Shown: positions 7,501 to 54,954 of the stretch, piece after piece
Layout: the number at the start of each line of letters is the position of its first letter
Position numbering within the stretch: position 1 is the stretch's first letter
From: Symbiodinium sp. CCMP2592
Lineage: Eukaryota; Sar; Dinophyceae; Suessiales; Symbiodiniaceae
DNA: 64,000 nt
Assembly: GCA_905221615.1 (NCBI GenBank)
Contig: CAJNDT010001247.1
Coordinates: forward strand, 246,501 to 310,500
Direction: 5' to 3'
Notes under the pieces: generated by a model
Told to the model about the DNA's origin: nothing
Databases searched by the model: none
Seen by the model: only the letters and a program-made list of their open reading frames with translations
Translations under genes and position numbers: made by a program

Positions 7501-10500
7501 ACCTCGAATCGAAGGGTTTGTTGTTTTTTAGCAAAAAATGCTCTGTAAAGTTTGTTTTGTTTTATTTGGGTGTTCTACGGGCTCTATCACGGTTCGATGA
7601 GGTTTCTGTTGACCTTTGGAAGGTTTGAGGAATTACGGTTGAGGGTTTCTAACCCTGACCACCGAAGCATCTAAGCCCGACGGCCCACAAGCATCAAATC
7701 CCTCCAGCCTGCCACCCCCACTAGAACCCTGGATTAGTCGAGCATCCCCCGGCAAAATCCAGAGATATCCATTTCCCGCATCTAAGGGTAAAATCGGTAA
7801 ATCCCTTGTCCCATACTTTTATCATGGGACCCAGGTTCCCCTAGCGGCCCCGTAACAGAGTTTTAGTAAGGAGACCTCAAAACAGATGATTCTAAAGTAC
7901 TACTTGAGACTTAGTAAGTAGCTGTTTTATAGAGTCACAAGTACCCTAAAATAGAAAGACTGCAGTGGAGGTTTTGATACTGATAACTCCATAAGGTCCA
8001 TAGCAAAAGCTATGCTTATTAAGCCCCCCGACCCTCCAAGTACTGGGTGAGCTAGGGCCCCCCAAAAAAACCCAAGCCCTCTCAAACTCCCCGAATCCTT
8101 ACTTATAGGGGCCTTCATGGTATAGGTGTTTATGTAAATTTCCAATATTACTATTAAATTGTTATCATGTAGGGATCGAAACGGGGATGCAATTGCACAG
8201 TCTCCTGCCCCCCCCATAATGTTGGCGATGATACTGGAGTCTGAAAGTAGTCCTTGCACATGACCTCGCCAGTCTTCTCGTTGCGAACTTCGACCTTTCC
8301 TTGGCTTCTTCGGGATGCCAACTACCTCATAATTGGGTAGTTAGGCTTAGGATAGAGGTAATGTAGGATCGCCGTTGGCATAACAGATGCTTGCTACTCG
8401 GTAGGTACACCCGGAAGGACCTCGACAGCAGATACCTCAGATGGGTTCTTAGGAATTACGCCGTAGTAACACAAGCTCCCATTGCAATTACGGGTCCTAC
8501 TTTCTAGACCCCCTGGGGTTAAGGGTCCCTTAAGGGTCCAAAACCTTACTTCCAGACCCCGCCTCGGTTTAGGGCTTCAGTTTTAGGGTTCAGGGGACAC
8601 CCCAACGCCCTTAAACATCTTGCTGCAAGACACGAGCCCCAGACCGCCTTGAGGATATGGGTAGTTGTCAAAATTATGGCCCCTTTTTGGGGTACCCTAC
8701 ATATTGGGTGCCGTATTATAATAAGGACCCAACAAGGGACCCTAATTTTGACAACCACCCATATGAAACATGGACACCCCGCCGACTTCCACGGCATCCC
8801 TACGAAAGACTGGCCAAGGCATGCTACAAACTTTTACGGGCTGAGTACCCTAGCCCAAAAAAGGTTAACCTCAGCAATGGTAGGATTGTACAAGCCCCAA
8901 ACGGTTAAAGGTTACCTACTCAGCCCCTACGGCTCAGGATATTGGGATTCGCCTTTCCAGATCATCCCGGTCTGGGCTTATGACCGACCTACTAAGTCAA
9001 CTGTTTTGCGCGACCATCCCCAACAAGGATCCTCTACCCAGATTTCCGGGAGGATCCAAAAAGTAGATCCCTTAATGGTGGTTCCTATAAAGACCCTGTA
9101 GTAGCAAAGGGCCCCAAATTTGGGGATCTACTTTCTAGATCCTCCCGGGGGTCTGGGTAGTTAGGGACCCTATAGTACTAAGGGCACTTTAAAGGACCTC
9201 TTCTACCTTCTCTCATAGGGACCCTTAGGGGTGTAGGGGGGAGGGGTGTAGGGGACTATATTTCCTTAAATAGGCCTTATTCGTCCTTATTATGGGCATT
9301 AAGGCCCCCTACCCCCCCTCCCCCTACACCCCTAAGGGTCCCTATGATTCTCAATCCTTTGGAGGGTCGGGCTCCCTGAAAGCTGAACGTTTGGGCCTTT
9401 TGAAAGATCTACTTTGCTACTATTTGCTTAAGAACCCCCCAACAAATAAAACATATATTCCTTATGGGGGTAATATAGGGATTATTATTTTTATTTTTTG
9501 GGGGTTTCTTAAGCAAATAGTAGTTTGGGATTCGCCCAAGACCAACACAAATCCTACACCCTGGGAGGATCCAAAAGCAGCTCCCTCAAGGGAGTTCCTA
9601 TGAGGCAGCCTTGAAGAAGCTCAGTAGTATCCGTTTCCGAGTTAAGGGATCAAATTTGCAGATCCTCGCGAACTACCAGGAAATCTTGCCCTACACCCAA
9701 AACCCCAAATGATCCCCTAAACCCCAAACCCTAATCCCTAAACCCTAAGCCGATCCCACACGAGTCTCCGTTCTCCCATCCTGCGATGAGCTCCGGAACG
9801 CCGTCGTTGTCTAAGTCGAAGCAGTCGATACCTTCCGGGTGGAAGTTTAGGGGCTACATAAGTTTAAGCATATTCACGAAACTCTCCAACTTACATCCTT
9901 TGTGGGTGGACTATTATTCCACTATGTGCTGTGGCAGACTAGAGGTCATAAAGCGATGGTCAGGTCTCGGCAATCGATTTGAAGTTGCTCCAGCATTCAA
10001 CCGACTTTCACCTGGACGTCCCTAAACCCTAAACCCTAAACCTAAACCCTAAACCAAAACCCTAAACCCAAAAGGGCAGTAAAAAGGCCCTAACATGTAG
10101 AATCGGGTTTGGGGGTGCCTTTTCAATTTCAGTGTACACGATGACGAGTTAACACAATATTCAGGCCCCGAACATAACTACCTACCGGGAGCCCTGGATT
10201 ACTATACTATACTAATACTATGCTATATTGCATTGTACTATATACTATACGATATACCACTTCCTACCGGGAGCCCTGGATGGTAGTACTTGCCTACACT
10301 AAGCTGCTTCGCCGCGAATAGGGTCCGTGCTTTGGGGCTTCGGTTTTGCAGGTGCGGGGTCGAGTCCTGCACTGTCTTGGGGACCCCCCTCTCAAGAAGA
10401 AACAAGGTTTAGGTTTAGGGTTCTCTAGAGAACTCGTAAGGTTCATAGGAGTATGAACCGAACTCGCTCAGGCACCAAGAGCCTGTTATGTGGATCAGAG

Positions 10501-13500
10501 ACTGATGCGGGAGTTTGTGTTCCCGGGATGCTAGCAGAAACATCCTGCCATCTGTTTTGGGACTTTACCCTCAGGCTCGCATCACCTTAAACCTCAAAGC
10601 CTAAACCTACACTGCAAGACCCAAACCCAAACCCGAACATCGAAACCCTCTTCGGACACCAAAGCTCTGGAAGCTTGTTTGTGTCAGCTGAGATGCAGTT
10701 GACACGATGTTTGGACTTCACTCGCCACGCTCGGGAGAGCTTGTCCTCAAGCAAGGTTTTTGTCAACTCGTGGCATGTGGGCTTTGGTCTCGGATGAAGG
10801 TCCAGGATTTGTGGAGAAGGATCTCTAACAGCAGCAATTAGGTCGCTTCCGCAAAGGATAACCCGTCATGAATGAACATCGTAGACCCGAAGCTGTAGCT
10901 GCTGGGGCCCCTACGCAAACTCCAGATAGGGGCCTTAATCTTAGTTGTCCAAATTCTTAGGGAACTATGAGAACTTGAACTCGCGGGGCTATATTGGGTT
11001 CTGCAGCCCAAACCCACTTAGTAACCATTAGAACATGGTGTTGGGATGTGTCAGCGCATACTTAAAGCAGGACTAAACTGGTGACCAAATGTTAGTACTG
11101 AGCATTCCGATTGCTGGCTTGACTTGCTCCAGGAAACAGGATAGCCGGTTGACGACGGTGGGAATGTAAAGTAAACCCCGGAAAAGTTGAAGCGCTGCCC
11201 ACTCAGCTGCTCAGGCAATGCTTTCGGGTTCAAGTCCTGAAGCATTGCACCGCCCGACTAAACCCCAAAGCCCTACCTGGACCCTGAAAACCCCACGACA
11301 TGCTGAGGGAGCTGTGTAAGGAAATCATGATAAGGGGCCCTCAAAGGCTAGGTTATTTGAGGTCAAGGTAGACCGGAAACCACCAGGCCGAAACCCTAAC
11401 CCTAAGATGGGTTAAGAGTTTAGGATGTAGGGTTCAAGCCTCGCATTACCAGGAATGACACCGGTAGAACACACCACGGCCATTCAAGCCCGGTCCAAAA
11501 ATAGATTCTCAGGCCCTGAACTACAAAGCCTAAACCTGACACTAAACAATCCTTAGCTCCATACAAAAAACGAAAATAAACTCAAACCCTTAAAGCAAAA
11601 AGCCTAAACTCCGGCAGGATCTGATGTAGAATGTAGATCCCTAAAGGGGTTGTTTATATAAACTACCCAGACCCCCGGGAGGATCCAAAAAGTAGATCCC
11701 TTAATGGGGATTCCTATAAAGCACCCTTAGTAGTATCGGGTCCCAAATTAGGGGATCTACTTTCTAGATCCTCCCGCGGGTCTGGGTACTCTGAGCAGAC
11801 CAGTGGGTTTTGCTTTGTAGATCCTCCCCGAAATCTGGGTGTAAGCTGGCTCCCCCTAAACTAAAAACCCTGAACCCTACACCCTAAACAAAAAGACCCA
11901 ACCCTAAACCCCAACCCCAAACCCTAAGCCATCATCCCTGAACTAGAGCCCTAAAGAGTACCAGACATTTAGGTGCTCAGGTCCAAAGTCCCAAAGAGAT
12001 CAAGACTAGGATACCCAGTAACCTAAGAATAAAAAGGCCTCTCTTTTGGTATTGGGTTTCTTTATAAGGAACCTAGGACTACAAAAAGGGAATAAGGGTA
12101 CTACTGGGCATCCTAGAAGATCAGCCCAGCTGCATACACACCCACCGTGCCATGCATCAGCCTGGGTCTAAGGATGGTTGGATGCAGGGTTTTAGGGGGT
12201 TTTAGGGGATCCTAGGAGAGTTTTTTTTTTAAAGTGCAGTGGCTCTTTCTGTGCGATGCAGGAGAGTTTAGGGTTTAGGGAGCTTGGGGCTTAGGGAGTC
12301 TAGGGTGTAGGGAGTTTAAGGGTGTTAGGGAGTTTAAGGTATCGGCTGTTTAGGGGGTTTAGGGTTTTTAAGGTTTGGGGTTCAGGGTTATCCTGTACTT
12401 CTCGACACTACAAAGCCTCAGAGAACCCCTACATGACCCTTTGACCCTTTGATAGAACAGTTATCGAAAACCTAACGAACCCCGTATAGAACCCTTACAA
12501 ACCTACTGTACTCACTCTTCTCCCTCCAGGAGACGACAGGCAACACAAAATCGAAAGTTCGAACAACAAAACCTCTAATCTGCAATTTATACCATGAAAG
12601 CGGGTGTTACCTTTAAAGATTCGGGTAGCGTAAAGTAGAAGAACACTCCTCATTACCTTAAAACAAAGTAAGCATAGGGAATCTCAGCACCATTGATCCG
12701 AAATCCGTGTTCCAACTTCCAGGAGCCTTCGGTTCACTACAAACCTGAAGCGCCGAGCCACGCGTAAGCGAATCGCGCCTTGTGGAGTGGCTCAATGCGC
12801 AAGACTACCTTCGCAAACGATCCCAACGAGCACTAATGTGTGGGAATGAACAAACTGCAATAGGGTTTTGGGGTATAGTTAAATGGGGTTTTGGGGTATA
12901 GTTAAATGGGGTTTTGGGGTATTGTTAAATGGTATAGTTAAATGGGGTCCGATATGGACTACCATCATCAAACCACTGATTCCGATCCCTACAGCCTCAC
13001 AGGACCTGCAAGGCAGAACCTAGACGCAGTACCCAGAAAGCACAATGACAATACTCCCTAATTAAGGAGCATTCCTTAGAACATCAACCGTCTTATTTTC
13101 ACTGAAAGAAGGTTCCTCAAGGTATGCAGCACGTTTCTGCATGGCTTAAGCAATGAATGCCTTGACATATGCGCAAGCCTTCCTATTGAAATTTTAGACA
13201 TATTCTTGACTACAGAGTGCACGGCCCAATACTGCTAACACAGGGGCCTTACTGATTAGAACAGACTTCTGGGGCATATTAAACTATAAATACAATAAGA
13301 AAACCCCCCAGAACCCTGTTCTAATTATTAAGACCCCTGTATTGGCTTGTTGGGGCTCTTTTGGTGGAGGCGAAAGCTGATCTCAGTCAAGCCACATCAG
13401 TCTCGGTGATCTCCTTGAGAACTACCTCAGGTTCTCTTGAGCGAAGGGCGGCGCAACAGTAGGGTCTCGGCGTTCCAGGACCCCCCCTCAAGTGCTCTTG

Positions 13501-16500
13501 AATAGAGCCCTCATGGTCCTCAATAGTGGGTATTTCGGGTATAGTCGTGGGTAGTTTGGGGGGTCTAAGCTGCTGTACCAAGCATTATTGGAAGTCACAC
13601 GATGCTGCAGCAACCTGGTCGGCGCTGCAAGCTGCCAAAAGGGACTTGTATTAATTTGGGGCATTATGGCATGGGACTAGAGGGAACGTGATCACCACCA
13701 CTTCTTCGTGGCCTTTGAAAGAAGAGCAACCGAGCCTCAAGCCTCAAACCCCGACACCCCTGAACCCTGAATTCTGAACGCTTAGCCCCTAAACCCCGAA
13801 CCTGGGTTCGTGTTATATAAGGAACCTAACTTGTAAGCCACCATAATCGGGATTTATCGTAAATAATTAAGTATAGGTTTCCTGAATATGCTAACCCTTC
13901 ACAAGAACCCATCAATAAACCCTAAACTGCCCGAAACTCTGAATCCCCGAAACCTTAAACCCCAAATCCCCAAAACCCCTAAACTCTAAAACCCTGAGGT
14001 CCCCCCGAAGCCCTGAACTAGGGGTCGATTTCAACAAACCACGAAATTATTTAATGTAATTGTAGCTGTCTATCAAACAAGGGAAATGAACTACTGGTGA
14101 TGATCTAATCAAGGACCCCAAACCTCTGGGAATTATGGTATATTCCTTATTATGGGTAGTGCAGGATTTATATCACAACAACCCTACTATTTGCTTAAGA
14201 ACCCCCAAAAAATAAAAAAAAAAATCCTTATGGGGGTAATATAGGGATTATTATTTTTTATTTTTTGGGGGGTTTCTTAAGCAAATCGTAGTTTATATCA
14301 CAACAACCGTCTTGCCCCAAATGGATACCTAGCAAACTGCAGGCTCGAAGCTTCGTTCTTGAAGGCTCGAATTTCGAAGTCCTCCGTGGTTGAGGGTCAG
14401 GGGTTTAGGGTTTAGGGTTAGGGGTTTAGGGGTTTAGGGTTTAGGGTTTAGGGTTTAGGGTTGAGGGGTTTAGGGTTGAGGGGTTTAGGGTTTAGGGTTA
14501 GGGGTTTAGGGTTAGGGGTTTAGGGTTGAGGGGTTTAGGGTTTAGGGTTGAGGGGTTTAGGGTTGAGGGGTTTAGGGTTCAGGGTTTAGGGTTGAGGGGT
14601 TTAGGGTTGAGGGGTTTAGGGTTTAGGTCCTCCGTTCCGCAGATGAGCTCCGGCTGGCCATCGTCGTCGACGTCGCAGAAGGCGAGTGCGCTGACGTTGT
14701 CACCTTCAAAGCTTACCCAAAAGGTCCACTTCCTCTATCATACATGCTTATAGGTTAGAAGGGGCCCCCACCCTGTAATCGTGACCATAAGGATTATATA
14801 GGATTATATTAGGGCCCTATTATATTCCTATTATACTACTATTACAGGGTGGGGGCAGCTTCTAACTTACAGGTCTACAAGGGGCTGACGCATAGTAGCC
14901 TCAGAACCAAGCCATGATCTACAAAAATTGCGTGACCCTACAGGGAACTCCAGAAACTTGGAATATGGAATAATGGTAGGATCCCCTGTAATTTTGCCTT
15001 AAAGGGGTTACGATAATGATATTCCAACTTTCTGGCTTCTACTGTAGCTATACTGAACTTAGAACCCTAGCAAAAATACAATTTTAGCTGTTTCTTAGGG
15101 ATTATAATAACCCAAAATTAAAAAAATATTTCAAAGTACCCCTAAGACTATTTACTAAGTCCCCCGACCCTCCAAAAGTGTTAATATTTCTAAGTACCCC
15201 TAAGGTAGACCCTAAACCCTGAACCAACCGGCTAGAAGGACTCAGAGGCCCTCGAGGCCCTGAGTCGAATGCCATAAACCTTATACTAGACCCAAGAATA
15301 ATTGGAGGATCATGAGACTTAGTAAGGGGTTATAGGTACCTGATTTGGGGTTATAAGTAATTATAAGTATAGTTACCTGAATGATAACCCTAGTCTAGAC
15401 CCAAGAATAACCTACGAATAAAAAGGGTGCCCTTTTTGGTTTAAAGGGGCTTATAAGGGAACCTGAACCCTTAAAAAGGGAATAGGGGCCCACTCGAGGT
15501 CCTAGTATAGGAGCCCTAAACACCTATAATCTTTTTTTTACAGGCTGGCAAGCGAACTACTGTAAACAAATTATAGGAGCCCTAAACACCCAGAGACTCC
15601 AAAACCCCTTAACTAAGGAATCCACCTTAAATCTTATTACGGTTCCTATTGTAATTTAAGGTAATTATATTGCTTAATTATGGGTTTAGGGGAGTCCCTG
15701 GGCACCCAACCCTCAAAAGCCCCTCCCTATGAACCTAAACCCTATCGTACCCTTCACAGTATCCTTATAGGAACCCGAAGCCATAAACCCTCTAGGCAAC
15801 ACAAACTCGGATCCCTAACAACCGTGCCTGTGACGGTCCAGTAGAGCTCGCTGCCCTCTGCATCAAAGGCTTGGACGGAGCCTCGTTGAAGGGGTTTAGG
15901 ACTTAGGGCCCAGGGTTTCGGGTGAGGTGAAGGGTGGGGAAAGCGGCTATTCCACGGTTTAGGGTTCATGTGTGGGCCTTGATGGCTAGAATCAGCTTAT
16001 GGGGTTTAGTGTATATAACTGTAGTGTAGTTGTGTTACCCCAAGGGTCCAAGTACCTAAAAATTATATACTCTCCAAAATCATAATCTGCAGAACTATGA
16101 TTGTAACACCGAATTAATTATTGGGTCCGTTGGACCCTTGGGGCTAAGGAGCGCTAAGGAACAATAGACCTAACTCTCCAGGCCCTTGGCAGACACTCGC
16201 AAAAGCTGAAGCCCCCAACCTTGAACAGTCTGAACCCGGACCCCAAAAGGATTTAACAATAGATCCCTTAAAGGAGTTCCCATAACGAGCCCCTAAGTAG
16301 TACAGGGTTCGGGGACCTGAATCTACTTTTTAGATCCTTCTGGTGGTCTGGGAAACGCCAGGTGGCAATTGCCGCCGACCACGCAGACAGGCTGCTCTAT
16401 CGAAGCGAGGTGGCCGTAGGTGATGACGTTCACCTACCATAAGGATTTGGGGTTCAAGGACTGTCAACTATAACCCTAAGGGTCCAAAGGACCCAATAGT

Positions 16501-19476
16501 TAGGTACTTGGGTTTAGGATACTAGTTCTGTAGGCTACTATTTGGGAGAGTATATGATAATTAGGTACTTGGATCCTTAGGGTAAGCTGACAAGAAGAAC
16601 CGTGGCCCCCGCTCCCCAAAGGGTCGTAAGTAACTATATAGTAAAATCTAGGATCAGGATTTCTGGGCTAGGAATTCTTATTCTCATTTGGGGAAGTACC
16701 CCACCTGACAGTGCCACCCATTGGGCTACCCTAGCAGCTGGTGACGCTAGCATGCTCAGCAAGTAGTTTCTTGAAGAGTTATTTGATTGGACTCTGGACT
16801 CTCCTATGCGACCTATCTTCTTGATATGAGGATAGGATTCATCTTGGCACTCGAAAAAGTCGTATGTTCACATCTGGTGGTACGATCCTCCAACTTGCAG
16901 GTGCTTGTGCCCAATGGGTCCTGGGTAGTTACTTGAGCCACTTTGGGGTTATGGATCCGCCAAGGTGTCGACATCCTGGACATCAAGCGGTCATACCGGG
17001 CAGCGAGAGGCCAGCCAAAGCCCCGCTGCAGCTTTTGCTATGGGTTTCTCTTCCTGTAGATTCACGTGTGCCGTGTAAAATGAAACGGCCATAGATTTCG
17101 CTTCCAAGGTGAATGACGGTGATTACTTCCTCAACTCCACACCCGAAATGGGAGTTTCCGAAAATAGGGGACCCTGATGCCTAACATAGCACCCTAAATA
17201 GTAGGATCCTTATTGTAAGGACCCCAAAATAAGGTAGCCCGCCCTTATTTTCGGAAACTCCCTTAAATAGGACCTCGAATTACTCCGGTTCTGGGCAGGC
17301 TGCTCCATCGTGCACGTCCTTAAAGAAGAGATCCGCATTCTCCTGGCCCCCACCAAGCTTTCCCTAAGGCTCCATGTACCTATATAGTATATACTTAGGC
17401 CTTAAACTACCTATACTAGGATACCCAGTAACCTAAGAATAAAAAGGCCTCTCTTTTTGGTATTGGGTAACTTTATAAGGAACCTAGGACTACAAAAAGG
17501 GAATAAGGGTACTACTGGGCATCCTAGCCTATATAGGGACCCCTTTTAGGCTTAAGCATCTACTAGATCGGTACATGGAGCCTGTGGCTTCGGGCTTAGG
17601 GATTTGCTCCGGGGTATGTTGCACCACGCATGCGTACGCAGGATACTAGGTTGGCCCTATAGAGGTTCTGAAAGCCTTTCGTAGATCAAATCCTCTTAAG
17701 CCCAATGAAGGAAAATGTGGAATATCTCTCACGCCTACCTGGGATCCCTTTGGAATCGTCGTGGGCCCTCGCGACCAGGTCGGCTTTGAATGGGAATGAT
17801 ACACGCCCAGGCCCTCAGGGAGGAGCTAGACAGTAGAACCTCTGATTTGATGTCCTAAACTCGGTATAGGGTTTAGGTCTAGGGTTTACATCTGGTGGTT
17901 GATGGCACTGGGAGGACGCCCCTAAACATCAAGGATCTGAAAGGCCCTGCTGCAGTAAGCTTCTTTCGATTGCCTCCCTAACGTTCAGGAATCCTTATCC
18001 TAAACCCTAACATTCGGGACTCCCTCTCCAAAGTTGAACAGGGCCACGAATTCAAAGTTTTACGTTTAGAGGTTGAGGGGTTGCAGTCCTCCACGTTGTA
18101 GACCTTGAGGCGTAAGGGTCTTCATAAACAGAGCTTTGGGGGCATATTATACTATACTCACAATAGCATAGTATCGGCAATGATTTAGGCCCCTATATGC
18201 GGCTTTTCGAATCCTCCACATCGTAGACCATGAGGCTTAGGGGTCTTAATAAATAGAGTAGGCTTTACATGCAATAAGGAGCCCCCTACACCCTTATATG
18301 CGGCTTTTGGAATCCTCCACATCGTAGACCATGAGAGACGTCTGAGTGCCCACCATGAGCATGTCCCGCTGGATGGCCGGATTGAGCTCACCTCTGGGCA
18401 GCGGATAGCTACCCAGACCCCCAGAAGGATCTAGAAAGTAGATCCCCTAATATGAGGCCCTATACTACTAAGGGTACTTTATAGGAACCCCCATTAAGGG
18501 ATCTACTTTTTGGATCCTCTCGGGGGTCTCAGTAGGTTCCTGAGTAGCCCCTTTATAATCAGGGCACCCTTTTCCCTACTACTGTATTTGGTTTTTTGGT
18601 AAGGGAGCCCAAAAAGAAAGAGGGCACATGGGCAATACTGAGGAACCGAAGTATATAGGATTGCATGTTTCAGGTTTGAGTGTTTAGTCTGCTAGGGTTT
18701 TCTCTTGGGGGGAAGATGCTTTAACTAGGGCCCCACAAAAGCACATAAGCAAACATTAGGGTAGGGATATCCTTATAAATGCTTATGCTTATGGGTCCCT
18801 AATTAACGTTTTTTGGCCAGGGTCCTTGACGAATCCAGCGCTCGCGGTTTACATGCACATGGGCAAAGATAAGAAGGACACGATGTGAAGACTCATCGTC
18901 GTAGGTATTGCTACGGGTGTCACTTTCCCAAAGAATAATACGGTTGATGATATAAATCCTGCATTACCTTAATGACCCTAAACTATGGGAGTTATGTGAC
19001 ATTCCTTATTATGGGTAATGCAGGATTTATATCATCAACCGTACTGACGACGAAGATAGAAACCCTACAGTCAACTCTCTAGGTACTTAGGACCCGTCGG
19101 GATTCTAACCCGAGACATCAACCCCACATCCTAGGCCTGAGCCTAAGCCACAAAATCCGACATCGACATCCTGCGCGCCAGAAGCGCTACCACCCCTGCT
19201 TGACCTAAAAGGCTCATGGGACTTAGTAAGCGCAGTTACGAGTACCCTCACTGGGGTTATACGCATTTAGAATCATTTCCTTACTTATCACCCTAGTTGC
19301 CAGGTCCGACGAATCATGAACGCTTAAGTACTCATGATCGCTTAAGTACTCCTGCCACAATCCCTCAACCCTAAACCCCTAAAACCTTCATGGCTCGGTT
19401 TCGGGTTTTAGGTGGCATTCGGCCTGTGACCACGGATGTGATCTTTCGGTTGATGTTGAGGAACATGACCTTTGGT
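4507..19476 (-). CDS. BBS2: BBS2 exons 4-20, copy-1 duplicate
   Basis: Identical exons in the first copy of the block: 19424-19476, 18315-18391, 17304-17342, 16367-16433, 15828-15881, 14630-14703, 14352-14381, 13396-13425, 12752-12808, 10878-10898, 10697-10745, 9769-9831, 8235-8299, 7450-7502, 6034-6075, 5329-5389 and 4507-4565. Exons 1-3 are missing because this contig stops at 20226. No substitution separates these exons from those in copy 2, as expected if both are the same locus. If the duplication were real, this copy would be a 5'-truncated gene. Confidence 0.9.
5673..5786. mobile_element. Foldback MITE family A, element A1 (copy 2: 26021-26134)
   Basis: Near-perfect inverted repeat: CTACTATTTGCTTAAGAA ... 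TTCTTAAGCAAATAGTAG with an AT-rich centre (TTATGGGGGTAATATAGGG). It is flanked by TATA on both sides, a probable 4-bp target duplication. It lies in BBS2 intron 18. Confidence 0.85.
7042..7149. mobile_element. Foldback MITE family E, element E1 (copy 2: 27390-27497)
   Basis: GGGAGTTTCCGAAAATAGGG ... TTTTCTTCGGAAACTCCC. A one-armed relic of the same family lies just to the left, from about 6967. Confidence 0.85.
7317..7426. mobile_element. Foldback MITE family F, element F1 (copy 2: 27665-27774)
   Basis: ATGGGTGGTTGTCAAAATTA ... AATTTTGACAACCATCCAT. It ends 23 nt from the exon 17 donor. Confidence 0.85.
8655..8764. mobile_element. Foldback MITE family F, element F2 (copy 2: 29003-29112)
   Basis: ATATGGGTAGTTGTCAAAAT ... 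AATTTTGACAACCACCCATA. Short open frames on both strands through it are chance. Confidence 0.88.
9036..9158. mobile_element. Foldback MITE family D, element D1 (copy 2: 29384-29506)
   Basis: Termini ACCCAGA...GGGAGGATCC and GGATC-CTCCCGGGGGTCTGGGT, with internal AAAAAGTAGATCCC and GGGGATCTACTTTCTAGATC. BBS2 intron 15. Confidence 0.85.
9216..9346. mobile_element. Foldback element family Q (copy 2: 29564-29694)
   Basis: ATAGGGACCCTTAGGGGTGT ... ACACCCCTAAGGGTCCCTAT, with strongly purine/pyrimidine-biased arms. Confidence 0.75.
9413..9527. mobile_element. Foldback MITE family A, element A2 (copy 2: 29761-29875)
   Basis: Same termini and centre as A1, flanked by TTTG on both sides. BBS2 intron 15. 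Confidence 0.85.
10181..10281 (+). repeat. 19-bp direct repeat flanking a 63-bp AT-rich insert (copy 2: 30529-30629)
   Basis: CCTACCGGGAGCCCTGGAT at 10181-10199 and 10263-10281. The insert is almost pure TATACTA-type sequence. Confidence 0.85.
11665..11787. mobile_element. Foldback MITE family D, element D2 (copy 2: 32013-32135)
   Basis: Best-preserved family D copy in the block (ACCCAGACCCCCGGGAGG ... TCCTCCCGCGGGTCTGGGT), 123 bp. BBS2 intron 12. Confidence 0.88.
12006..12116. mobile_element. Foldback MITE family I, element I1 (copy 2: 32354-32464)
   Basis: CTAGGATACCCAGTAACCTA ... GGTACTACTGGGCATCCTAG, 111 bp, with AAAAAGGCCTCTC in the centre. Confidence 0.88.
12861..12948 (+). repeat. 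23-bp minisatellite (copy 2: 33209-33296)
   Basis: Three and a half units of GGGTTTTGGGGTATAGTTAA plus ATG, in BBS2 intron 11. Confidence 0.9.
14093..14310. mobile_element. Element A3 nested in a family B element (copy 2: 34441-34658)
   Basis: A3 (14184-14291) interrupts the right arm of a degraded family B foldback. The 17-bp host sequence TTTATATCACAACAACC stands on both sides (14167-14183 and 14292-14308), so it was duplicated on insertion. Confidence 0.8.
14394..14629 (-). repeat. BBS2 intron 9: telomere-like array acting as an intron (copy 2: 34742-34977)
   Basis: The whole intron between exons 9 and 10 consists of TTTAGGG, TTTAGGGG and TTGAGGGG units (CCCTAAA on the coding strand). 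Its flanks carry a 9-bp direct repeat, GTCCTCCGT on the plus strand, at 14379-14387 and 14627-14635. Splicing uses a GA donor and an AG acceptor that both lie within the repeated bases. The pattern is an insertion of telomere-like DNA into coding sequence, with target duplication, that is now removed as an intron. Confidence 0.85.
14753..14870. mobile_element. Foldback element family O (copy 2: 35101-35218)
   Basis: GTTAGAAGGGGCCCCCACCC ... GGGTGGGGGCAGCTTCTAAC, in BBS2 intron 8 near the exon 9 acceptor. Confidence 0.75.
16036..16146. mobile_element. Foldback family K, element K1 (copy 2: 36384-36494)
   Basis: CCCCAAGGGTCCAAGTACCT ... GGGTCCGTTGGACCCTTGGG. A second member, 16478-16586, lies on the other side of exon 7. 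Confidence 0.7.
16233..16352. mobile_element. Foldback family D, degraded element D3 (copy 2: 36581-36700)
   Basis: Diverged arms (AACCCGGACCCCAAAAGGAT ... GATCCTTCTGGTGGTCTGGG). It ends 14 nt from the exon 7 donor. Confidence 0.7.
16478..16586. mobile_element. Foldback family K, element K2 (copy 2: 36826-36934)
   Basis: CCCTAAGGGTCCAAAGGACC ... GGTACTTGGATCCTTAGGG, 45 nt upstream of the exon 7 acceptor. Confidence 0.7.
17150..17262. mobile_element. Foldback MITE family E, element E2 (copy 2: 37498-37610)
   Basis: GGGAGTTTCCGAAAATAGGG ... CCTTATTTTCGGAAACTCCC, 41 nt beyond the exon 6 donor in intron 6. Confidence 0.88.
17368..17582. mobile_element. Element I2 nested in an unrelated foldback (copy 2: 37716-37930)
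   Basis: Outer arms GGCTCCATGTACC ... GGTACATGGAGCC enclose a complete family I element at 17416-17527. The outer element must be the older insertion. Located in BBS2 intron 5, close to the exon 6 acceptor. Confidence 0.75.
18080..18336 (-). repeat. BBS2: Three tandem fragments of the exon-5 end inside intron 5 (copy 2: 18428+20000 region, 38428-38684)
   Basis: The block reading LMVYDVED plus the following ~17 intron bases is present at 18296-18336 (exon 5 itself and the start of the intron). It recurs at 18193-18233 with one change, and more diverged at about 18088-18122 (LKVYNVED). The period is about 103-105 bp. Only the first copy is preceded by the rest of exon 5. Local tandem duplication across a splice donor is the simplest cause; mutually exclusive 3' exon ends are a less likely alternative. 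Confidence 0.8.
18410..18531. mobile_element. Foldback MITE family D, element D4 (copy 2: 38758-38879)
   Basis: TACCCAGACCCCCAGAAGG ... GGATCCTCTCGGGGGTCTC. It lies 19 nt upstream of the exon 5 acceptor, so it forms the end of intron 4, directly next to a family J element. Confidence 0.8.
18535..18647. mobile_element. Foldback family J, element J2 (copy 2: 38883-38995)
   Basis: GGTTCCTGAGTAGCCCCTTT ... GGCAATACTGAGGAACC. A diverged relative lies at about 6652-6735. Confidence 0.7.
18940..19042. mobile_element. Foldback MITE family B, element B1 (copy 2: 39288-39390)
   Basis: 103 bp with termini ACGGTTGATGATATAAATCC ... GGATTTATATCATCAACCGT. The centre carries CTTATTATGGGTAATGCAGG. BBS2 intron 4. 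Confidence 0.9.
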
Positions 19477-20226: not shown

Positions 20227-20326
20227 NNNNNNNNNNNNNNNNNNNNNNNNNNNNNNNNNNNNNNNNNNNNNNNNNNNNNNNNNNNNNNNNNNNNNNNNNN
20301 NNNNNNNNNNNNNNNNNNNNNNNNNN
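20227..20326. other. Assembly gap of 100 N
   Basis: Exactly one hundred N, the conventional placeholder for a gap of unknown size. The sequence to its left ends at the same base that continues normally at 40574/40575 in the second copy. The gap is therefore a join between two contigs, not a biological feature. Confidence 0.99.
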
Positions 20327-33900: not shown

Positions 33901-36900
33901 AGTTTGGGGGGTCTAAGCTGCTGTACCAAGCATTATTGGAAGTCACACGATGCTGCAGCAACCTGGTCGGCGCTGCAAGCTGCCAAAAGGGACTTGTATT
34001 AATTTGGGGCATTATGGCATGGGACTAGAGGGAACGTGATCACCACCACTTCTTCGTGGCCTTTGAAAGAAGAGCAACCGAGCCTCAAGCCTCAAACCCC
34101 GACACCCCTGAACCCTGAATTCTGAACGCTTAGCCCCTAAACCCCGAACCTGGGTTCGTGTTATATAAGGAACCTAACTTGTAAGCCACCATAATCGGGA
34201 TTTATCGTAAATAATTAAGTATAGGTTTCCTGAATATGCTAACCCTTCACAAGAACCCATCAATAAACCCTAAACTGCCCGAAACTCTGAATCCCCGAAA
34301 CCTTAAACCCCAAATCCCCAAAACCCCTAAACTCTAAAACCCTGAGGTCCCCCCGAAGCCCTGAACTAGGGGTCGATTTCAACAAACCACGAAATTATTT
34401 AATGTAATTGTAGCTGTCTATCAAACAAGGGAAATGAACTACTGGTGATGATCTAATCAAGGACCCCAAACCTCTGGGAATTATGGTATATTCCTTATTA
34501 TGGGTAGTGCAGGATTTATATCACAACAACCCTACTATTTGCTTAAGAACCCCCAAAAAATAAAAAAAAAAATCCTTATGGGGGTAATATAGGGATTATT
34601 ATTTTTTATTTTTTGGGGGGTTTCTTAAGCAAATCGTAGTTTATATCACAACAACCGTCTTGCCCCAAATGGATACCTAGCAAACTGCAGGCTCGAAGCT
34701 TCGTTCTTGAAGGCTCGAATTTCGAAGTCCTCCGTGGTTGAGGGTCAGGGGTTTAGGGTTTAGGGTTAGGGGTTTAGGGGTTTAGGGTTTAGGGTTTAGG
34801 GTTTAGGGTTGAGGGGTTTAGGGTTGAGGGGTTTAGGGTTTAGGGTTAGGGGTTTAGGGTTAGGGGTTTAGGGTTGAGGGGTTTAGGGTTTAGGGTTGAG
34901 GGGTTTAGGGTTGAGGGGTTTAGGGTTCAGGGTTTAGGGTTGAGGGGTTTAGGGTTGAGGGGTTTAGGGTTTAGGTCCTCCGTTCCGCAGATGAGCTCCG
35001 GCTGGCCATCGTCGTCGACGTCGCAGAAGGCGAGTGCGCTGACGTTGTCACCTTCAAAGCTTACCCAAAAGGTCCACTTCCTCTATCATACATGCTTATA
35101 GGTTAGAAGGGGCCCCCACCCTGTAATCGTGACCATAAGGATTATATAGGATTATATTAGGGCCCTATTATATTCCTATTATACTACTATTACAGGGTGG
35201 GGGCAGCTTCTAACTTACAGGTCTACAAGGGGCTGACGCATAGTAGCCTCAGAACCAAGCCATGATCTACAAAAATTGCGTGACCCTACAGGGAACTCCA
35301 GAAACTTGGAATATGGAATAATGGTAGGATCCCCTGTAATTTTGCCTTAAAGGGGTTACGATAATGATATTCCAACTTTCTGGCTTCTACTGTAGCTATA
35401 CTGAACTTAGAACCCTAGCAAAAATACAATTTTAGCTGTTTCTTAGGGATTATAATAACCCAAAATTAAAAAAATATTTCAAAGTACCCCTAAGACTATT
35501 TACTAAGTCCCCCGACCCTCCAAAAGTGTTAATATTTCTAAGTACCCCTAAGGTAGACCCTAAACCCTGAACCAACCGGCTAGAAGGACTCAGAGGCCCT
35601 CGAGGCCCTGAGTCGAATGCCATAAACCTTATACTAGACCCAAGAATAATTGGAGGATCATGAGACTTAGTAAGGGGTTATAGGTACCTGATTTGGGGTT
35701 ATAAGTAATTATAAGTATAGTTACCTGAATGATAACCCTAGTCTAGACCCAAGAATAACCTACGAATAAAAAGGGTGCCCTTTTTGGTTTAAAGGGGCTT
35801 ATAAGGGAACCTGAACCCTTAAAAAGGGAATAGGGGCCCACTCGAGGTCCTAGTATAGGAGCCCTAAACACCTATAATCTTTTTTTTACAGGCTGGCAAG
35901 CGAACTACTGTAAACAAATTATAGGAGCCCTAAACACCCAGAGACTCCAAAACCCCTTAACTAAGGAATCCACCTTAAATCTTATTACGGTTCCTATTGT
36001 AATTTAAGGTAATTATATTGCTTAATTATGGGTTTAGGGGAGTCCCTGGGCACCCAACCCTCAAAAGCCCCTCCCTATGAACCTAAACCCTATCGTACCC
36101 TTCACAGTATCCTTATAGGAACCCGAAGCCATAAACCCTCTAGGCAACACAAACTCGGATCCCTAACAACCGTGCCTGTGACGGTCCAGTAGAGCTCGCT
36201 GCCCTCTGCATCAAAGGCTTGGACGGAGCCTCGTTGAAGGGGTTTAGGACTTAGGGCCCAGGGTTTCGGGTGAGGTGAAGGGTGGGGAAAGCGGCTATTC
36301 CACGGTTTAGGGTTCATGTGTGGGCCTTGATGGCTAGAATCAGCTTATGGGGTTTAGTGTATATAACTGTAGTGTAGTTGTGTTACCCCAAGGGTCCAAG
36401 TACCTAAAAATTATATACTCTCCAAAATCATAATCTGCAGAACTATGATTGTAACACCGAATTAATTATTGGGTCCGTTGGACCCTTGGGGCTAAGGAGC
36501 GCTAAGGAACAATAGACCTAACTCTCCAGGCCCTTGGCAGACACTCGCAAAAGCTGAAGCCCCCAACCTTGAACAGTCTGAACCCGGACCCCAAAAGGAT
36601 TTAACAATAGATCCCTTAAAGGAGTTCCCATAACGAGCCCCTAAGTAGTACAGGGTTCGGGGACCTGAATCTACTTTTTAGATCCTTCTGGTGGTCTGGG
36701 AAACGCCAGGTGGCAATTGCCGCCGACCACGCAGACAGGCTGCTCTATCGAAGCGAGGTGGCCGTAGGTGATGACGTTCACCTACCATAAGGATTTGGGG
36801 TTCAAGGACTGTCAACTATAACCCTAAGGGTCCAAAGGACCCAATAGTTAGGTACTTGGGTTTAGGATACTAGTTCTGTAGGCTACTATTTGGGAGAGTA

Positions 36901-51539: not shown

Positions 51540-52008
51540 CACACACATAGACTTCGGCCCCAAAATACCTTCTTAGGGACTACTTCGAGGCCAAGGTACA
51601 CATCATATGGGCCCATGGACCCTTAGGGTTCTGACAGCTCGTTGCTGTAACAAGGCTTTAGATTCGAGTTTAAGTTTAGGGTCAAGGGCTCCGTGTTTTC
51701 GGGTTCAGAGTTTTAGCATTCAGGGTTGGGGCATGGATCTTGGTTTTCAGGGTTCTGGTTTCTTGGAGGGCGACATTTTAAGTAGCTATTTCATATTGCA
51801 GACCTATAAGTTAGCTGAAAGGTATCACAACCCGTTTGGGGCCCCTTTTAGGGTACCTACAAAACTACATATGGCCTACTTACTGAGTCCAAGATAAGGC
51901 ACCCCAGAAACCACCCTTAGTCCTGAACCCTAAGCCTTAATCCCTGAATCCACAACAAACGAAGCTGTTGTTCGGCCCCCAAATACCTGAGTCAACAACC
52001 ATTAATTA

Positions 52009-52120
52009 CTAGGATACCCAGTAACCTAAGAATAAAAAGGCCTCTCTTCTTAGTATTGGGTAACTTTATCAGGAACCTAGGACTACAAAAAGGGAATAAG
52101 GCTACTACTGGGCATCCTAG
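52009..52120. mobile_element. Foldback MITE family I, element I3
   Basis: CTAGGATACCCAGTAACCTA ... GCTACTACTGGGCATCCTAG, 112 bp, very close in sequence to I1 and I2. Confidence 0.88.
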
Positions 52121-52324
52121 CTTTTGAAACCCTAAACCCTAAACCCAGAACCTTAAACCCTAAACCCTAAACCCAGAAACCTCAACCCTAAACCCAGCAC
52201 CCAGAACCTTCTGGGCATGCTAGCCAAACACCTGGGTCAACAACACGTACACCCCGGAAGTCGAAGCCCTCAACCCATGGGCCTCGATCTCAGTGACTAG
52301 GCGACATGCAAACCACCAAAACTC

Positions 52325-53510: not shown

Positions 53511-53835
53511 TCCTAAACCCACTAAACCCCTAAACCCCTCAACCCTAAACCCCTAAACCCTAAACCCACTAGACCCCTAAACCCTGAACCCCTAAACCCT
53601 AACCCTTTAAGGAAGACCTTAAGGATCCGCCAAGTACGGTCCGTGGAAGCCTGGCAAGTGCTGAGGCCGGCGAGGCCCCCTGAGGTCGGTCGTTAGGGGA
53701 TCTAGGGATCCTTAAGTTCTTCCTTAAAGGGTAAGGTGTTAGGGGGTCTGAAGGGGCTCCTTTAAGGGAAGGGGTTTAGGGTTTAGGGTTTAGGGTTTAG
53801 GGGTTTAGGGGTTTAGGGGTTTAGGGGTTTGGGGG
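53511..53835. repeat. Head-to-head telomere-like arrays around a GC-rich core
   Basis: CCCTAAA array (53511-53606) and TTTAGGG array (53769-53835) face each other. Inside them are inverted copies of CCTTTAAGGAAG...CTTAAGGATCC. The 53635-53695 core is GC-rich and could hold a micro-exon (AG|G acceptors and GC donors are present on the minus strand), but I cannot fix a frame. Confidence 0.7.
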
Positions 53836-54570
53836 TCTGAGGGGGCTCCTTTAAGGGATCCCTAAAATTTTCTTTAAGGCTTTGATAAGGGGTTCCGTTA
53901 AGGGCTCCTGTAGTGGGTCGTTAAGTTGAAGGGGTCTGAGGGATCCTTAAGTTGGTCCTTAAAGGGTGGGGTTTAGGGTTTAGGTGTTTGAGGGTTTTGG
54001 GTTTAAGGGTTTGGGGGTTTAGGGTTTAAGGGTGTAGGGTTTAGGGGTTCAGGGATCCTTAAGATTTCCCTGAGTGAATCTATATGGGGCTCAGGGGGTT
54101 GAGGGGGTTCAGGGGTTCAAGGTTAGAAAGGGGGTTTAGGGGTTTGGGGTTTATGGTTTGGGGTTTAGGGGTCTCGGGTTTGAGGCTTTGGCACCTGGCA
54201 GAACTTGGAGCCGTATTTTGGGGATAAACAAGCGGTACGCCTGCAACCGCTTGTGGCCTTTGTTGGCCTTAGCTATCCCGTAAACCACCTATAAAACAAG
54301 AACCCTCAGCAAAAGGACCAAAGAATGGAAGAGTACCCCTATTGCCGCTTCCAGGGCCCACCCCGACATGAAGGATCTATACGGTTGTAGGTGGTGTTTC
54401 ACATAAACAGCGATATTGAATTCAGTTTGAAGGTAGTGACGGCTTGTTTCTACAAGGCGGTAGGTTCAGGCTAACCAGTGTTCAGAACATAAGTTTTCAG
54501 GGTGCATATCTGTTTCTCTTGTGGCCTGGATAAACGGATCCTTACCCATAATTCTGCCAGAAGTCTACAA

Positions 54571-54694
54571 CCCAGACCCCCGGGAGGATCCAAAAAGTAG
54601 ATCCCTTAATGGGGGTTCTTGTAAAGTACCCTTAGTAGTAGTATCGGGCCCCAAATTAGGGGATCTACTTTCTAGATCCTCCCGGGGGTCTGGG
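54571..54694. mobile_element. Foldback MITE family D, element D6
   Basis: Near-perfect arms: CCCAGACCCCCGGGAGGATC ... GATCCTCCCGGGGGTCTGGG. Confidence 0.9.
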
Positions 54695-54954
54695 AAGGGA
54701 GGGATTGGGGCTTAGGGTTTAACACTATGTTCCTAAACAGGATGGAAGGCCAACTTCAGGCAAATCCTCTGAAACCTAAGCCCTGAACCCTATAATTAAA
54801 CCCTAAACACTGAAGGTTTAGAGGGTGATTCACCGGAGCATTGCAGCCCTATATCGTAGGTTTAGTCTACCTAAAGTCTGTGGTCTGTACTCGTGGCCCT
54901 CGCAGATTGGCAGGTCCTGGATCTTCGTAAAGAACGTTTGGTCACTCGGGCCCT

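Follow-up and report, generated by a model that had tools for sequence, protein, structure and literature searches.

The origin of new introns is an open question: introners are credited with many gains, and others offer no clue to where they came from. A clear example with an identifiable filler other than a transposon, and with both splice sites taken from duplicated bases, would show a permissive spliceosome making the repair of exonic breaks nearly harmless. An intron of BBS2, a gene for cilia, in the single-celled dinoflagellate alga Symbiodinium sp. CCMP2592 raises the question of whether telomere-like DNA can provide such a case. We studied it within a window of 64,000 nucleotides, the whole stretch of DNA analyzed here (G000:C1247:246501-310500), and against the full assembly of 1.098 Gb in 5383 contigs.

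A BBS2 intron filled with telomere-like repeat

BBS2 lies on the minus strand of the window, a strand that the initial annotation had left unstated. The intron of interest is a predicted spliceosomal intron of 248 bp (14382-14629, minus strand), of the GA-AG type and in phase 0, that separates a Glu from an Asp codon on the evidence of both the sequence and a spliced alignment. The upstream exon (14630-14703, minus strand; ending in ..DNVSALAFCDVDDDGQPELICGTE) was read by hand and recovered by the spliced alignment. The downstream exon (DFEIRAFKNE) occupies 14352-14381 on the same strand by hand reading, and the spliced alignment puts its 3' end at 14359, not 14352. Inside the intron lies a telomere-like array of 239 bp and 33 units (14388-14626), G-rich on the plus strand and C-rich (CCCTAAA) in the sense of the gene. 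Bordering the array are two copies of a 9-bp direct repeat that reads ACGGAGGAC in the direction of the gene (GTCCTCCGT on the plus strand), at 14627-14635 and 14379-14387, both on the minus strand; the copies are identical and match over exactly 9 bp. The core between them parses wholly into repeat units (TTTAGGG, 18 of 33; TTGAGGGG, 7; TTAGGGG, 3; and five single variants), with no non-repeat base left over. An intron made nearly entirely of telomere-like units and edged on both sides by a 9-bp direct duplication, as first annotated, is what we found, and all 33 units of its core are of this kind.

The repeated word offers a sole workable splice register, ACGGAG|GAC, in which both the AG acceptor and a donor of the form G(A/C/T) fall within the duplicated bases (GAG|GACC...GGAG|GAC) and the BBS2 frame is restored. 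The first copy supplies the end of the exon (..ACGGAG) and the donor GAC, and the second supplies the acceptor (..GGAG), after which the exon resumes with GAC TTC. A purpose-written spliced alignment to human BBS2, with all G(T/C/A)-AG options allowed, arrived at the same junction, 14382-14629. The hand-joined protein carrying the GAG|GAC junction matched bovine BBS2 with an E value of 2.6e-77 over 218 residues and the Pfam domain BBS2_Mid with 3.6e-34. The earlier placement of both splice sites inside the duplication, with an exact frame, is borne out by these results. Were the insert retained, translation in the upstream frame would continue into ..EDLNPKPLNPKPLNPKP and then a stop. The 5' part of BBS2 aligns unreliably, which makes the number 9 given to this intron in the initial annotation tentative.

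Insertion at a break or overrun of an older intron

We propose that a staggered break in a BBS2 exon took up telomere-like DNA and that the duplicated bases allowed this insert to be spliced immediately, a reading to which we assign a probability of roughly 0.6 from the sequence. A staggered double-strand break would have opened in the exon and been closed with telomere-like (TTTAGGG-type) DNA, either captured or synthesized, and fill-in of the overhangs would have left the 9-bp direct repeats. The upstream copy would then give the donor and the downstream copy the acceptor, and the insert would be spliced out exactly in vivo, leaving the BBS2 protein unchanged. We infer this order of events, from break to splicing, from the final structure. 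Such an insert would be spliceable at once because AG|GA is contained in the duplicated word, and GA, GC, and GT all serve as donors in this host, paired with AG|G acceptors. Being C-rich in gene sense, the array would offer a pyrimidine tract; it also has CTAAC words and, shortly before the acceptor, a CTGAC, which resemble the branch-site consensus and may act as branch sites.

In the strongest competing explanation, the BBS2 intron is old and telomere-like repeats spread over it afterwards; the 9-bp identity of its junctions would then be a coincidence added to the AG|G consensus. Telomere-like DNA is plentiful, which also favors insertion: three exact TTTAGGG units in a row (21-mer) occur 148,652 times in the genome, versus once for the reversed control. 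Among 20 sampled 10-kb stretches, seven (L010, L016, L017, L018, L020, L023, and L024) hold 4-21 telomere-like units per kb and the other 13 hold 0.6-2.3; the unique part of the window has a scatter of such units with a density of 14 per kb. They also occur in other introns, for example nine of them in a 438-bp dynein intron (L040). Given this abundance, an array in an intron is unremarkable by itself; what is remarkable is an intron of nothing but array, edged by a perfect 9-bp duplication. Within the sampled stretches (L010-L029), unit density differs sharply between contigs, and L025 and L029, with GC contents of 0.30 and 0.28, may be foreign.

Control introns came from dynein genes: the domain PF12774 has 96 matches in the genome, and in 18 stretches taken from these we called 149 introns with a caller that allowed only GT, GC, and GA donors; some of these calls are doubtful, and 14 lack a G after the AG. 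Their donors are GC in 76, GT in 44, and GA in 29, and their acceptor is AG|G in 135 of the 149. The telomere-like BBS2 intron fits this dinoflagellate pattern of a GT/GC/GA donor with an AG|G acceptor, and its donor, GA and not GT, is ordinary in this genome because 29 of 149 dynein introns share it. A 21-nt spliced leader, which we take to be that of dinoflagellates, has 429 exact matches in the genome, versus none for its reversed control.

These controls set the chance levels for the two unusual features. First, the longest junction repeat among the 149 dynein introns is 8 bp, and none reaches 9. When splice junctions of 134 AG|G introns were shuffled into new pairs with the splice register fixed, 0.07% of pairs had a junction repeat of at least 9 bp. 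The short direct repeats at both BBS2 junctions (9 bp, P = 0.0007) thus extend beyond the splice consensus. Second, telomere-like units cover 0.91 of the BBS2 intron versus, by the same measure, a maximum of 0.21 among the dynein introns, and 0 of the 149 is telomere-made. The other introns of the gene are also different: five that were read by hand measure 485-1124 bp, are 2-4% telomere-like, and have junction repeats of 1-4 bp. The spliced alignment called 21 BBS2 introns, and the 20 others have junction repeats of 0-3 bp, in a set whose earliest members (before residue 80) are poorly supported and where some junctions differ from the hand reading.

An overrun of an older intron draws some support from the frequency of short repeats, since junction repeats of 3-5 bp are common. 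In addition, a looser local control (a repeat within 6 bp of both edges, with equal spacing, in nearby sequence) reached 9 bp in about 0.9% of draws because the DNA here is repetitive. The BBS2 case therefore rests on repeat, register, and content jointly, not on repeat length alone. Against an overrun, no base of an older intron is left between the repeats, the five hand-read introns of the same gene have taken up few such units, and nine matching bases in the splice register have the low chance probability given above. We consider this explanation unlikely. The observation itself is real and well outside the background. Insertion with target duplication is the best fit because the core is pure up to both repeats, there is a single workable splice register, and none of the 149 controls shows the pattern. 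As read from the sequence of one locus, it is the most likely history, although no second telomere-made intron turned up among the 149 dynein introns. The claim that telomere-like DNA inserted in an exon had become an intron instantly is partly supported by the same three points, with telomerase, captured DNA, or an old intron overrun by repeats as possible mechanisms.

If telomere-like DNA were a recurrent source of introns here, without any transposon, through break-repair duplication and a permissive spliceosome, exonic telomeric insertions would become introns at once in a genome flooded with TTTAGGG. Inserted the other way round, the G-rich repeat would even bring a GT and an AG of its own. 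We regard this broader proposal as doubtful.

Other dynein introns are of interest in their own right. Junction repeats of at least 5 bp are mildly enriched among them (19.4% versus 10.6%), as expected if part of these introns arose from insertions with short target duplications. Two introns of ordinary content, at L042:789-928 and L045:3442-3612 (0-based, locus strand), have junction repeats of 8 bp (AGGTGCAG) and 7 bp (CAGGACC), respectively, and are candidates for insertion-derived introns. Beside the intron-dense dynein genes, dynein domains are also found in long open frames (G000:C7:88264-89244, C4623:150310-151302, and C1446:239402-240547), two of the three being uninterrupted across the whole domain; these are either retrogenes or contaminant contigs.

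Source of the array and the introner alternative

The intron might also be an introner: a transposable element, its body telomere-like or a retroelement tail, that entered with a 9-bp target duplication, as introners of dinoflagellates do. Passages of PMC9860276 describe introners with 3-9-bp target duplications and GA or GC donors, and in the BBS2 intron, too, the target duplication overlaps a splice site. The array is not unique in its make-up: a 37-mer with the TTGAGGGG variant (TTTAGGGTTGAGGGG) recurs at 148 places with at most one mismatch, the BBS2 locus and its copy included. However, terminal inverted repeats, which are present in part of the introner families, were not seen by eye, and the transcript strand folds no better than shuffled sequences (z = 0.10), which argues against a hairpin of the introner type. 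The 45-bp left edge of the insert, searched at 0-2 mismatches, is found only at the BBS2 locus and its duplicate, and two other places match it at 3 mismatches, the maximum permitted in the search. Eleven other variant arrays, each with an exact match to the 37-mer, were compared by eye and have neither flanks nor ends nor duplications in common. No intron of this kind is present among the 149 dynein introns, so the many copies that characterize an introner were not found there. An introner is a less probable origin than an overrun intron.

Returning to insertion at a break, the same searches bear on where the inserted DNA came from. The seven TTGAGGGG units favor an existing variant array, or later expansion, over a fresh and pure telomerase product. 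A class of variant arrays does exist in the genome, yet none is a visible donor for the BBS2 insert, whether sought with the 37-mer pattern, with the 45-mer pattern, or among the 11 variant arrays.

The BBS2 feature is present twice in the window. Positions 1-20226 and 20351-40574 are near-identical 20-kb copies with 43 differences, 41 of them confined to the first 721 bases, and a run of 100 N at 20227-20326 adjoins the duplicate. The second copy contains the whole feature in identical form (34727-34983, minus strand). The two copies are probably a haplotig or scaffold duplicate, or else a very recent tandem duplication. Because it sits inside this duplicate, the feature at 34727-34983 is no second event and no independent evidence, and we counted both copies once. 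An assembly or repeat-collapse artefact, which the duplicated setting beside the 100 N might suggest, is highly improbable given that the feature is identical in both copies and the reading frame carries on exactly from one exon to the next. A DNA query of the joined exons matched only the two window copies, and no intronless BBS2 copy was found in the genome; like the missing donor array, this counts against the proposed insertion. A Pfam BBS2_Mid search of the genome missed short BBS2 exons.

Known systems and other telomere-like arrays

The proposed history has its closest relative in intron gain at repaired breaks, marked by short direct repeats, which is reviewed in PMC3443670. There, unrelated DNA between short direct repeats is read as the fill-in of a staggered break and is spliced, as we propose for BBS2. 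The BBS2 case differs in its telomere-like filler and GA donor, and the main text of PMC3443670 does not contain the string 'telomer'. The same review cautions that direct repeats of at least 5 bp flank a quarter of conserved Drosophila introns. The likeness to introners of dinoflagellates and other algae, as far as the relevant passages describe them, lies in a target duplication that overlaps the splice sites and in GA/GC donors. PMC9860276 describes introners with GA and GC donors in which a target duplication provides one splice site or both; dinoflagellate introners (including those of Roy et al. 2023) are summarized in the review PMC11453091; and Amoebophrya introners with direct repeats of 3-5 nt and inverted repeats are described in PMC7789003. 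Unlike these, the BBS2 intron has no visible inverted ends or copy family, and its body is a tandem telomere-like array.

Mammalian interstitial telomeric sequences at breaks are likewise short internal arrays of telomere type. According to PMC2246262, the flank is duplicated at 6 of 130 such insertions in rodents and at 4 of 25 in primates, so that a minority resemble the BBS2 array (33 units, 239 bp) in this respect as well. The BBS2 array differs in that it lies in a protist coding exon and is presumably removed by splicing. Yeast protointrons that lie within telomeric Y' elements are described in PMC6726248. No intron made of telomeric repeat came up in the titles and abstract openings of the literature searched, which lies mostly outside subscription papers. 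The initial annotation called the route undescribed. Its combination of features was indeed absent from that literature, but each part is published, as the passages of PMC3443670, PMC9860276, and PMC2246262 attest. What looks new is the use of telomere-like DNA as the filler of an intron; the pieces of the route are known.

We also surveyed flanking repeats around other arrays. Two earlier scans took the array edges too narrowly to be a test of duplications, and the BBS2 9-bp repeat is absent from both outputs. In the first, the BBS2 array was given only a 6-bp telomeric word, and repeats of at least 9 bp surrounded 7 of 55 arrays versus about 4% of the control draws (n = 1100); at five of those seven arrays the repeated word was telomere-like. 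In the second, repeats of at least 7 bp surrounded 4 of 48 arrays versus 0.6 expected, three of them with telomere-like letters. A rescan with looser edges, from which mainly telomere-like repeats were left out, covered 125 arrays and recovered the BBS2 repeat. With BBS2 set aside and random nearby pairs of equal spacing as the expectation, edge repeats of at least 6 bp were seen at 14 of 124 arrays (5.0 expected), of at least 7 bp at 6 (2.4 expected), and of 8 bp at 3 (1.6 expected); at 9 bp the excess was gone (1 versus 1.3 expected). Swapping flanks between arrays gave a larger excess than the local control, with 7 of 125 (BBS2 included) versus 1.0 expected at 7 bp. The excess is modest, and several of the edge words have some telomere-like sequence or recur nearby. 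We take the counts as a hint that a minority of the arrays arose by insertion and gained short duplications in the process. Joined-flank queries for the empty sites of other arrays were run in the sampled sequence, and telomere-like matches dominate among those listed.

Individual arrays show further features. At L001:1487-1553, six pure TTTAGGG units with short filler have GGCTTAAGC on both sides, at a site without a long open frame. The 309-kb sample contains this 9-bp word 12 times; the locus may be a second case of telomeric repeat inserted with a duplication of 9 bp. Within the window, a short telomere-like array (53775-53835) lies between two 17-bp words, GGGGCTCCTTTAAGGGA, at 53753 and 53842 (overall span 53753-53858); the 309-kb sample has one further occurrence of the word, and about 1% of local control draws give repeats of at least 17 bp. 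The triplet before clean arrays (n = 110) is CGG in 13, TGG in 3, AGG in 14, and GGG in 47. The CGG bias is seen in pure arrays of L001, L008, L010, L016, L020, L057, L059, L062, L065, and L066, and the excess of CGG over TGG possibly reflects a priming or target preference. A retroelement tail was rejected as the origin of the CGG-preceded arrays, whose upstream flanks looked unrelated by eye.

Other repeats punctuate the window. A piece of a BBS2 exon, GGTCTACGATGTGGAGGATTC (18310-18330, minus strand), recurs inside the following intron as one exact and one degenerate repeat (18209-18229 and 18083-18104, minus strand). The window also has dispersed repeats, about 110-135 bp long and 88-97% alike, both within and between genes. 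One family, present in both orientations, occupies 9034-9167, 11660-11788, 18410-18538, and 54567-54704, and a second occupies 12005-12116, 17414-17528, and 52007-52121; these dispersed repeats are likely small transposable elements.
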